Source: an uncultured Blastocatellia bacterium (GTDB taxonomy: Bacteria > Acidobacteriota > Blastocatellia > Pyrinomonadales > Pyrinomonadaceae). From it: a DNA stretch of 64,000 nucleotides. Positions 57,885-61,747 of the stretch are shown here, one piece after another. The notes below the pieces were generated by a model that was not told where the DNA came from, ran no database searches, and saw only the letters and a list, made by a program, of their open reading frames with translations. Location of the stretch: the NCBI GenBank assembly GCA_946480785.1, contig CAMLLD010000008.1, positions 1 through 64,000 of the forward strand, given 5' to 3'. The translations under genes were made by a program, and so were the position numbers. How positions within the stretch are numbered: the stretch's first letter is position 1; each line of letters begins with the position of its first letter.

Positions 57885-58436
57885 ATCACCACACCCGCTG
57901 AACGATTCATCGCCTGCGCTCGACAGTTTCTCGTCGACGACTACTTGCCGAAAATCGAACGCTGTCTGGAGCGTTTGACGGACGAGCAGATCTGGTGGCG
58001 TCCGAACGAAGAGTCAAACAGCATCGGAAATCTGGTGCTGCATCTCTGCGGCAACGCGCGGCAATGGATCGTGTGCGGCGTCGGCGGCGCAGTGAGCACG
58101 CGCGATCGTGATGCGGAGTTCGCACAACGTGAAACGATCGAGCGCGATCGATTGTTGAGTCTGCTGCGCACGACGCTCGCGGACGTCGACTCAACCTTGC
58201 TCAACCTCGTTCCAAAGCTGGACGATCCAAAAACACTCCTCGCACGCCGCACAATTCAAAGCTCTGAGGTCGATGTACTCGAAGCAATCTTCCACGTCAC
58301 CGAACACTTCTCGATGCACGCTGGACAAATTTTCTTGCTGACAAAGTTACTCACCGCAACCGACCTACAGTTCTATGATTTCGAAGCCGATGCACCAGTT
58401 GAGCGCTGGCGTTCTGGTGCCTGTAGTTCGTCTTAA
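57885..58436 (+). CDS. DinB-family putative metalloenzyme, apparent ATC start
   Basis: DinB-fold proteins are four-helix metal-binding enzymes, often thiol-dependent. The metal-site His are visible in LVLHLCGN and in HVTEHFSMH. The reading frame has no ATG, GTG or TTG before the first conserved helix; a TTG at 57945 would cut it. An ATC at 57885, 8 bases after AAGGAG, gives (M)TTPAERFIACARQFLVDD and a 183-residue product. So either ATC is the start or an ATG has mutated. An in-frame stop lies at 57858. Confidence 0.75.
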   Translation: MTTPAERFIACARQFLVDDYLPKIERCLERLTDEQIWWRPNEESNSIGNLVLHLCGNARQWIVCGVGGAVSTRDRDAEFAQRETIERDRLLSLLRTTLADVDSTLLNLVPKLDDPKTLLARRTIQSSEVDVLEAIFHVTEHFSMHAGQIFLLTKLLTATDLQFYDFEADAPVERWRSGACSSS

Positions 58437-58585
58437 ATGCCCCGTGAAAGTACTGAACGCTTTTGAGGAGAGGAGATCTCGGCTTCCCTGTGGGGGGCGT
58501 GTCTCCAGTCGACTCACCTAAACTATAAGCACTTGGGTTGGGAGGACTTCAGTAACTCCTTATCGGGTCGCCTGTGATTGCTTGA

Positions 58586-58625
58586 GGTTATTGCTAGCCC
58601 TTTCGCAGGGCCGGGCAGAATAACC
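58586..58625 (+). other. Long imperfect hairpin after the DinB-family gene
   Basis: GGTTATTGC pairs with GCAGAATAACC (one bulged A) and inside it GCCCT pairs with AGGGC around TTCGC. CTCTTTCC follows. It may be a terminator or the edge of the island; the sequence does not decide. The whole 275-base gap before the next gene is otherwise without a gene. Confidence 0.45.
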
Positions 58626-58628
58626 CTC

Positions 58629-58673
58629 TTTCCATTAGACGGCCAAGCTATATATTATCTTGCCTGAGGCAAG
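58629..58673 (+). promoter_or_regulatory. Possible promoter with adjoining palindromic operator before the island genes
   Basis: TTTCCA (58629-58634), 18 bases, and TATTAT (58653-58658) form a weak promoter. Directly after it is CTTGCCTGAGGCAAG (58659-58673), 7-bp arms about one base, over the likely transcription start. Such a site suggests a repressor, but no repressor gene was found in the window. Confidence 0.4.
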
Positions 58674-58711
58674 CCTCGTCAGAACACCGTTTTTCCGGTA
58701 TAACGAGTCAA

Positions 58712-60028
58712 ATGGAACAGTCCCTAACAGAGATTAAGAACCGTCGCGACTTTGCCGAAGCGTTCGACATTGCAATGGCGGGCGCAGATCAATCTCTGCG
58801 CAGCATCTGGCAATTTGGCAAGGATCAAAATCTCCCAAAGACGTATTTAGTAGAGTTCCATCCGAATGTTAATGACCACTTTGCTGAGAGGTGGACAACA
58901 GAACAGTTGTTCTTAACGCTGGCCCAAGGGGGCGAACAGTTTGGAGCTATGGTCCGTCGAACCGAGGATGACTCGCTGTTATACCTTTCGCACACTGAAC
59001 AGAGCCATTCAGCTGAGTTCATAATCGATGCTCTAAACCCGCGGTTCTTAGCATTCCATACGCTGTCCAATGCCAAGTCAACGGACAGATTCATTCTTGA
59101 GCGGTTAACGCATCACCATACTGCATTTGATTCGTTTTGGCTCCCTGTCAGTCTCTTGGAAGGTGTAGAAAAACGTGAACAGGTAACAGGTTGGGAAGCC
59201 TCTTTTGAGCCTTTAATGAATGGGCTGGATTTTTCTCCAGACGATCACGATGACGATGACATTGACGACATTCATAGTTCGTTTTCTGAGCCCTTGGAAG
59301 CATTAGATGACGAGGTTCCTTCAAGCATCCCCTATCATCCGAGCCTTCGCATAAATATTTTACGACGTAATGCGATGAAAGCCTACAATCAGTTGAGGAA
59401 TTCCAAAATATTACCTGATGTTCCTCTCAGTAGCATTCTTGCTGAGCGATACGACAATGAACTAGATACAAAAGCGCGTGCGAGGATTAAGTGGAATGGC
59501 AAGGTGACAGGACGGGGCACGGACTTTTCAGCGTATCTCCAAATAGTCAATGGAACTCTTGATAACTATGCGAGCGTTGTGACCTCATTAGAATCGAAGT
59601 ACTGGTTGGGTTTATGTGCGCCGCAGCACGAGAAGGCTTCGGGATTTCGGCTTAAAGGGGAGCCATTCTGCATTACTTTCGAATCGGAGATTAATGTCGA
59701 ATCTGTAGTTAACGGAATGTTCAATTGTAGGCCGCCATTTAGGTTAATGGGTGAGCCGCAGAAAATATCTGAGAAATATTATGTGATTGATGCCGTGGAC
59801 TTGCACGTTGGTCAACCACTAGCTATTGAAGTGTCCCCTTGGTTTATAAGAATTTACCTTTATGAGGGAACTTGTGGAAATACAATTGTACGCATTCTAA
59901 GGTCGTTGCAGCATTACATAGATTCCAACCTGTGGCACCCGCCACTACTGACTCAAAATCGCTCGGCAGATGATGGTGTTTCGAAGTTCTCAAGTACATC
60001 CTCCTTGAAACCGGAGGAACAAAGATAG
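58712..60028 (+). CDS. Unrecognised 438-residue protein of the accessory island
   Basis: The product has an alpha/beta-looking N-terminal half and an acidic linker (residues ~177-187, mostly Asp). A second half includes FSAYLQIVNGTLDNYASVVT and ISEKYYVIDAVDLHVGQPLA. No signal peptide, membrane helix, ATPase or nuclease motif was found. Base composition is visibly richer in A and T than the flanking genes. It is followed after about 206 bases by a PD-(D/E)XK-like gene, so the two may be a system. The function is unknown. Confidence 0.75.
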   Translation: MEQSLTEIKNRRDFAEAFDIAMAGADQSLRSIWQFGKDQNLPKTYLVEFHPNVNDHFAERWTTEQLFLTLAQGGEQFGAMVRRTEDDSLLYLSHTEQSHSAEFIIDALNPRFLAFHTLSNAKSTDRFILERLTHHHTAFDSFWLPVSLLEGVEKREQVTGWEASFEPLMNGLDFSPDDHDDDDIDDIHSSFSEPLEALDDEVPSSIPYHPSLRINILRRNAMKAYNQLRNSKILPDVPLSSILAERYDNELDTKARARIKWNGKVTGRGTDFSAYLQIVNGTLDNYASVVTSLESKYWLGLCAPQHEKASGFRLKGEPFCITFESEINVESVVNGMFNCRPPFRLMGEPQKISEKYYVIDAVDLHVGQPLAIEVSPWFIRIYLYEGTCGNTIVRILRSLQHYIDSNLWHPPLLTQNRSADDGVSKFSSTSSLKPEEQR

Positions 60029-60175
60029 CAGAGTATAGAAAAGCGCAAGGGAGACACTTGGCACTGGTGCTCGAATTGTTCCAGTTGGCCGACAGGTGTT
60101 GATACGGACGAACAGGATGGAAAACCCACGAGCGGGCGAGCCATGTAACCGAGTGTCAGGCAAAGCACCTTCATG

Positions 60176-60194
60176 GTAAGTGTCGATAACTTAC
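60176..60194 (+). repeat. Inverted repeat before the nuclease-like gene
   Basis: GTAAGT and ACTTAC form a 6-bp inverted repeat with a 7-base spacer, 40 bases before the start used for the next gene. It could be an operator or RNA hairpin. The rest of the 206-base gap shows no gene I would trust; it has several short complementary segments. Confidence 0.35.
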
Positions 60195-60234
60195 ATCACC
60201 GTCGAAATTCGCAAGATCAAAGACTATTGGAGCT

Positions 60235-61239
60235 TTGTGTACAGAATTGGTGTCGCAAAGACCATTAACGTTGACTGTGGGATTAACCGAACTTCAACAA
60301 ATCAATGCAATAATCGGTCTCAGCAAGAATATCGCTGGATGGCCGAGTACGTTGGCAGATCATAGATACAGCCTTGATCGAATTGAACTCAAATTAACAG
60401 TTCCCGATCCATCGAAGCCGGGGATCAATCTTGTGATCAATCCTGATTTGCTATTCGTCTCTGATGAACGCAACCATAGTCTAATTGTCGAATTGAAATC
60501 GGGTTCATATCAAGAGCATGATTTTGAGCAGTTAGAAAAAGTACTTACATTGACTGCCAGTCAATTGGTTAGATCTGGAAGAGTTACCCTTCAATATGCG
60601 GCCAGCGTTGGGACTCATCAGATTTCAGTCATGTTAGTAGTCAACGAAAACAAGTTGGCGGGGTTCAAGACAGCTTTAACAGCCTCTCCAAACGCGTGTT
60701 TGGTAAGTATCGGGACAAGCTTGATCCAAACGCAACTTGGTGCATTACGGGATAGATTGTTAGACAATGAGTTCAGACGGGGCGTCGTCATTGCGAAAAA
60801 GTATTTACCCACCAGACTACTCAGAGTCCTTCCGACAACCAATCAGACAAAAGACATAAAGAGATGCATCGTTGAAACGATACGCGACCTGTGGGTCAAT
60901 AACGAACGATCAGTTAATCCTCAAAGAATCGCAGATAGACTTTTTAGCAATGGGATCTGGGCTTTATTTGATTCAGATGCTAAGAAGCGGTTCGTACGGA
61001 TCGCGGAAGATGTGCTCAAAGACATGCGTGAGACTGAATTCAATCGGTATCTTCAACGGGTGCCTGGTGAGCGTCACGAATACAGATTACTTAGGCTGCC
61101 TGAAACCGAAGGAAGAGGTCTATTCCGAGCCCAACAGACTTTTCAAAGGGCAGTTCGCGAGTACAAGACTCGTTTACTGAATGACGAGGACTATCGTGGA
61201 CGATTTATTGACCAGTATACGTTAGATGACATTGTTTAG
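60235..61239 (+). CDS. PD-(D/E)XK nuclease-like protein of the accessory island
   Basis: The 334-residue product has a nuclease-like core: Asp71 in INPDLLF, then a hydrophobic strand ending in Glu86-Leu-Lys88 (SLIVELKSG) and a helix with Gln99. This is the D-x14-E-x-K pattern of PD-(D/E)XK enzymes. The C-terminal part is helical (NPQRIADRLFSNGIWALFDS). The start is a TTG at 60235 with a poorly placed GGAG; TTG at 60247 and GTG at 60250 are alternatives. It is AT-rich like its neighbour. The target, DNA or RNA, is unknown. Confidence 0.75.
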   Translation: MCTELVSQRPLTLTVGLTELQQINAIIGLSKNIAGWPSTLADHRYSLDRIELKLTVPDPSKPGINLVINPDLLFVSDERNHSLIVELKSGSYQEHDFEQLEKVLTLTASQLVRSGRVTLQYAASVGTHQISVMLVVNENKLAGFKTALTASPNACLVSIGTSLIQTQLGALRDRLLDNEFRRGVVIAKKYLPTRLLRVLPTTNQTKDIKRCIVETIRDLWVNNERSVNPQRIADRLFSNGIWALFDSDAKKRFVRIAEDVLKDMRETEFNRYLQRVPGERHEYRLLRLPETEGRGLFRAQQTFQRAVREYKTRLLNDEDYRGRFIDQYTLDDIV

Positions 61240-61549
61240 ATATTTTCGTCGCCTTGCGCCAACTCAATTTGCTCAGTCATTGGTCAACCGCAAGTCCATC
61301 GTTCGCTAAACAACTGTCGATGGCATTTTACCAATGCACACCACTGAGGCGATGGAGCATTGAGCTCCTTCCATCTCACGGCCTGGCTAAGTAGGGAAAT
61401 CGGACCAAGTTTGCTAGCGCTTTGGAAGCGCGAAAATGCGGGCCTCCGCTGGGGTGTCGCCAAACTTGCAACCGTCAAGAAGCCGTCAACCGAGGTTTAG
61501 CGAGTCTGCAAACAAAAGACAGCAAAGCGGTTGACGTTCCGCTTCCCAT

Positions 61550-61625
61550 CACGATGCACACCGGACAGATTATTTTGTTAACTAAGCTGTTAACCGCCTC
61601 CGATCTGCATTTTTATGATTTGTAA
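61550..61625 (+). pseudogene. Remnant of a second DinB-family gene
   Basis: The frame encodes MHTGQIILLTKLLTASDLHF and YDL, which closely matches the end of the intact DinB-family protein (MHAGQIFLLTKLLTATDLQF). The DNA differs at many positions, so it is a paralogue, not a copy made recently. The rest of the gene is absent; upstream sequence of the same frame is unrelated. The 508-base stretch from 61240 to 61747 otherwise shows no gene. Confidence 0.8.
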
Positions 61626-61747
61626 AGGGATGTGCCGGCCCGCAAACGAAGATGAATTACTGGCAATGGTATTCCTGTAACCCTTGCTCTCCCGCATGAG
61701 ATGAGAAAGCTTCAGGGGTAGCCCTCAGTAGTGTACCTTTGAATCCA

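Follow-up and report, generated by a model that had tools for sequence, protein, structure and literature searches.

A two-gene island at positions 58437-61640 of a 64,000-nucleotide stretch from an uncultured Blastocatellia bacterium of soil (contig CAMLLD010000008.1, positions 1 to 64,000; hereafter the window) probably encodes an undescribed antivirus system, since its two genes move as a pair through bacteria and archaea and at times lie inside a known antivirus cluster. The pair is a real module without a name. The best explanation of the whole, to which we assign a probability of about 0.5, is a mobile defence module in which gene 1 would supply a sensor or clamp and gene 2 a nuclease. 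The two genes are as follows.

58712..60028, forward strand: gene 1, 438 residues, family PF25924
60277..61239, forward strand: gene 2, 320 residues from GTG (334 residues if from TTG at 60235), family PF27326

Both open reading frames (ORFs) lie where the first-pass annotation of this DNA had placed them; the 334 residues that it gave to the second should probably be shortened. Nearly all aligned homologues begin at residue 15 of that reading, and the likely start is therefore GTG 60277. The two family names come from tables of protein relatives and consist of accessions only.

Protein searches returned 87 gene-1 and 58 gene-2 relatives. Assemblies were matched using 69 of the 87 gene-1 rows, with the 18 distant ones left out, and for 29 of the 58 gene-2 relatives the largest contig of the assembly was identical in size to that of a gene-1 relative. 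The proteins P0053 and P0137 have consecutive locus tags (VF397_11575/11570). Thirteen loci were collected outside the acidobacterial clade of the window, four by a genome scan, four by plasmid searches and five by whole-genome searches. They span several bacterial phyla and two archaeal plasmids, and the two genes are adjacent in every one. The neighbouring ORF, of about 300-440 residues, carries the nuclease motif in 13/13, as read with a search pattern written to allow motif variants. With the partner profile A4, all but one of the 13 scored E 2.4e-4 or lower; eight of the matched partners had seeded the profile, and the five non-seed partners gave 1e-74, 9e-47, 1e-7, 2e-4 and 0.71. The last of these (L023) is linked to the family by the nuclease motif, and phmmer matches it strongly to partners within the range of A4, L064 among them. 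A profile built from acidobacterial partners alone found 8 of the 13. When A4 was run on 400 Chloroflexota genomes it gave three matches (one a seed), each adjoining gene 1; the partners in G183 and G319 fell below its threshold in this search.

Twelve of the 13 loci have gene 1 first and gene 2 second, and the order is reversed in Streptomyces (L003/L024). The two proteins diverge in step (r 0.98, with L022, where gene 1 is split, excluded and with shared ancestry of the hosts not corrected). The flanking genes vary from locus to locus: by eye, the pair sits between two cytochrome-biogenesis-like genes at L025 and adjoins a DNA-polymerase-I-like gene at L001. It also occurs on large plasmids, including one of Methanocaldococcus jannaschii. 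Conserved co-occurrence amid variable flanks was the check that the first-pass annotation had proposed, and co-occurrence was seen at all 13 loci. We have very little doubt that the pairing and the nuclease identity of gene 2 are real. On a Natronosalvus plasmid (L011, 5959-6399) a 146-residue ORF within a run of small genes resembles the end of gene 1 (E 5e-5). This plasmid was considered as a fifth plasmid locus and kept outside the 13, no nuclease having been recognised by eye in one neighbouring ORF. No viral relatives were found in IMG/VR (21 pattern matches, none confirmed) or in phage records. The spread of the pair is sporadic within phyla. Gene 1 was found in 5/400 Chloroflexota genomes, 2/396 Actinomycetota genomes, 1/14 genomes of the phylum of L002 and 1/60 relatives of G355 (seeds included in each count), and in 15 of 149 relatives of the actinobacterium G679.

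The architecture of gene 2, numbered on the 334-residue reading, is that of a nuclease with an added domain.

60286..60774, forward strand: PD-(D/E)XK domain, residues 18-180
60445, 60490, 60496 and 60529, forward strand: core residues D71, E86, K88 and Q99
60847..61188, forward strand: C-terminal winged-helix-like domain, residues 205-318

The D71-x14-E86-L-K88 core that had been read from the letters is present and is kept across 25 aligned partners, with D/E in 25/25, E/D in 25/25, K in 23/25 and the following Q in 25/25. Gene 2 thus has both the core residues and the core fold of the PD-(D/E)XK superfamily, and its structural matches include NucS/EndoMS-type enzymes. It differs from XisH and other PD-(D/E)XK proteins by its winged helix and its conserved partner gene. 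The partners at L004 and L025 have E-W-T (T for K) in place of E-x-K, with a lysine some residues further on, and the core of these two may therefore be shifted or inactive.

The clearest tie to known immunity is with DISARM. Downstream of the pair in G679 comes drmD, with an overlap of 4 nucleotides, and then drmMI, drmA and drmB. DISARM genes were found near gene 1, within the stretch examined, in seven of the 15 gene-1 genomes (G679, G896, G899, G903, G860, G861 and G907), with drmD only in G860 and drmA and drmB only in G907. Gene 1 stands between drmMI and drmA in G896, G899 and G903, with other ORFs intervening, and in these three an ORF with an HKD motif (motif only) follows drmB. DrmB was present in 16 of the 149 relatives of G679, and 10 of these 16 have gene 1 where about 1.6 would be expected (Fisher p 1.8e-8, kinship not corrected); in 4 of the 10 DrmB lies on another contig or far off. 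Thus gene 1 lies within or against the drmD-drmMI-drmA-drmB cluster of class 1 DISARM in several Actinomycetota, twice with a full-length gene 2, but the pair stands apart from DISARM at the window and at most other loci. Neither window protein matches the Drm models, and no Drm family appears among the 25 of 35 families listed for the 49 other ORFs of the window.

Clear defence neighbours were seen at four of the 13 diverse loci (L007, L021, L022 and L023) and matches to candidate systems at two (PDC-M04A at L019, PDC-M41A at L020). At L021 (2506-4513) a SMODS nucleotidyltransferase and an S_4TM-like gene below cut-off adjoin the pair as a CBASS-like unit, and by eye type I restriction-modification-like ORFs adjoin the G979 locus. 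A PADLOC search at 1e-25 matched 101 neighbour ORFs to 72 families and 101 control ORFs (sampled from 152) to 15. This excess is weak because families rather than proteins are counted, one DISARM gene matches many models, and 25 of the 72 families are listed. At seven of the 13 loci no clear known defence neighbour was seen. The proposal of the first-pass annotation that known defence genes should adjoin the pair is borne out at some loci only, with DISARM the clearest case. Its suggestion of defence against phages or plasmids gains support from the co-occurrence, the variable flanks and these neighbours, and we consider a role against foreign DNA likely.

Gene 2 is less stable than gene 1 among the relatives of G679. 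It looks full-length in eight of the 15 gene-1 genomes (G679, G974, G865, G880, G896, G991, G979 and G906), is shortened or broken in six (G899, G903, G862, G860, G861 and G935); in G907 no copy was found. Full-length copies occur at 2/7 DISARM-linked loci vs 6/8 elsewhere, and on this ground the reading of the whole pair as the nuclease arm of DISARM was dropped. The counts say that the part retained by DISARM is gene 1. DISARM may use it with its own or another nuclease, since gene 2 is often shortened or lost there. In PMC9142583 the nuclease step of DISARM is called a mystery, and drmC is described as dispensable. The decay may partly reflect assembly faults, and it also fits a costly effector. 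At L071, L072, L073 and L069 most of the nuclease core is gone and gene 1 persists; at L022 (7528-9916, in G183) a transposase-like insert splits gene 1.

The same decay could be taken for the trace of a toxin-antitoxin-like pair, in which gene 2 would be a nuclease harmful to its own cell and kept in check by gene 1, serving the stability of plasmids or islands, with defence as a by-product. Gene 1 is long in five of the six genomes with a damaged gene 2 (in three of them 82-92% identical to that of G679), as if a toxin had been lost and its antidote had remained, and a conserved adjacent pair on plasmids suits this reading as well. However, at about 400 residues gene 1 is far bigger than usual antitoxins, it is better conserved than the nuclease in pairs compared by eye (75 vs 65% and 44 vs 36% identity to the window), and its link to DISARM extends to loci with a damaged or missing gene 2. 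We regard a toxin-antitoxin role as unlikely.

Gene 1 itself is harder to place. Neither window protein has an above-cut-off match in Pfam, NCBIfam or PADLOC, and a search of solved structures by sequence with both gave a best E of only 0.24; gene 1 is, as first supposed, without a named sequence relative. Its model (mean predicted local distance difference test score, pLDDT, 81.2) shows repeated alpha/beta units by eye, and two segments are of note.

59219..59338, forward strand: acidic linker, residues 170-209, of low model confidence and varying length
59798..59893, forward strand: residues 363-394, where 25 sequences agree throughout at D363, H365, C388, N390 and R394 and almost throughout at G389

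The most recurrent structural matches of the model are CENP-L, Iml3 and CENP-N, together with RdgC. KICSTOR chains have a slightly lower Foldseek E than the CENP-L-type matches, but a lower probability; by Z a KA1 chain outranks RdgC, and chains of sliding clamps, TBP and RnlA match as well. The matches among viral models include a phage RdgC (E 0.11) and TBP-like proteins. RexA, RdgC, Iml3 and Chl4 are united as one DNA-binding fold in PMC11077077, and the gene-1 model weakly resembles this CENP-L/Iml3/RdgC fold, common to lambda RexA. We treat the resemblance as a lead, the structural scores being close to those that the tool labels common. A relationship to RexA by sequence was sought with hhalign of the gene-1 profile A3 against the lambda protein and gave no match (probability 0.5, E 0.12).

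Among 21 positions checked, twelve (E48, R111, D140, W143, G263, Y286, E294, D363, H365, C388, N390 and R394) are invariant in 25/25 gene-1 sequences, the diverse members of which are only 20-30% identical to the window. This seems to exceed what a scaffold would need. It would suit an enzyme or ligand receptor that modifies or senses DNA ends or a nucleotide, the pair then being restriction-like. Yet no Pfam match to a methyltransferase, the mark of restriction-modification, was found in the pair or in the three flanking ORFs tested, and no enzyme fold that would explain the residues was recognised among the top structural matches; we think this reading quite improbable. A module for the DNA repair or replication of mobile elements, with an RdgC-like clamp and a branch- or end-processing nuclease, draws on the role of RdgC in recombination (PMC11077077), the NucS/EndoMS-type matches of gene 2 and the presence of the pair on large plasmids, but is made very unlikely by the sporadic spread within phyla and the link to DISARM.

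For the preferred reading, a mobile defence module, three known systems offer comparisons. Lambda RexA/RexB likewise pairs two genes, one of them for a putative DNA-binding sensor whose predicted fold class may be that of gene 1. The partner here is a nuclease rather than RexB, which is a membrane protein, and gene 1 has no sequence match to RexA. In Hachiman HamAB the sensor is a helicase (PMC12278908), unlike gene 1, which has no helicase match; neither window protein matched HamB or HamA in PADLOC at E 1. In TOTE/TALON a TBP protein acts with a nuclease effector, and TALON occurs mostly in Chloroflexota, according to PMC12458937. The pair may share that plan, the TBP-like character of gene 1 being weakly indicated by its model, but no TPR-CSD gene was recognised beside it, though no profile search was aimed at TPR-CSD. 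No description of this gene pair was found among the papers listed from the literature open without subscription, nor any paper there that carries the accession PF25924 or PF27326.

We propose, tentatively as regards the sensor-clamp mechanism, that gene 1 would bind DNA as a sensor or clamp, structurally akin to RexA, RdgC and CENP-L, and would detect foreign DNA in a particular state, for example as an intermediate of replication or recombination. Through a complex with gene 2 it would recruit or release the nuclease, thus aiming or restraining it, and the PD-(D/E)XK enzyme with its winged helix would then degrade phage or plasmid DNA. At the DISARM loci of some Actinomycetota gene 1 may act whether gene 2 is present or not. 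The data show the pairing, the kept nuclease core, the sporadic spread, the linkage of gene 1 to DISARM and the decay of gene 2 in some genomes; DNA binding by gene 1, complex formation, nuclease activity, target and defence are what we infer for the pair.

In the window the island is best read as a solitary, horizontally moved two-gene module. Its G+C content is 46.6%, and the lowest among 553 upstream windows of equal size is 55.0% (mean 58.8, sd 1.5), which agrees with the first impression that base composition sets it apart. Three further features mark its edges and interior.

58309..58392, forward strand: tail of an intact DinB-family gene (57945-58436), which forms the near-edge copy of the repeat around the island
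60029..60200, forward strand: frame-broken remnant of a small Cys-rich reading frame (two CxxC) between the genes, read by eye
61549..61632, forward strand: diverged second DinB tail at the far island edge

The far-edge DinB remnant is real: it matches the near-edge tail at 60/84 bases, ungapped (score 36 vs 16 for the best of 200 shuffles). Elements that insert at the 3' end of a gene leave flanks of this kind, and the DinB gene looks like such a target, yet no integrase was seen at the island. The view that the island was recently acquired agrees with the composition and the paired tails as far as acquisition is concerned, which carries no date. A claimed palindrome near a possible promoter did not hold up. 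The strand at 58560-58660 has no folding advantage over its shuffled versions (z -0.56, 58/200 as good), promoter-like matches are at chance level (7 vs 4.2 +/- 1.8 expected), and the sole palindrome given by the repeat finder (58760-58785) lies inside gene 1. The two-CxxC frame is fused to gene 1 in P0001, a relative 97% identical, where this region has no Pfam match. The few close relatives with organism names, for both genes, belong to Pyrinomonadaceae and Blastocatellia, which points to an acidobacterium as the probable host.

If the preferred reading is true, it would give a function to two families that are accessions only, including the M. jannaschii plasmid pair long annotated as hypothetical. 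For DISARM it would put forward a candidate partner protein, joined in two genomes by a candidate nuclease, and a kinetochore-type fold would be tied to prokaryotic immunity. A bolder and rather unlikely extension is that the CENP-L/CENP-N/RdgC DNA-clamp fold has a branch in bacteria and archaea founded by gene 1; with its nuclease it would form an ancient autonomous immune module, from which DISARM operons would repeatedly have recruited the clamp for targeting, either alone or along with the nuclease.
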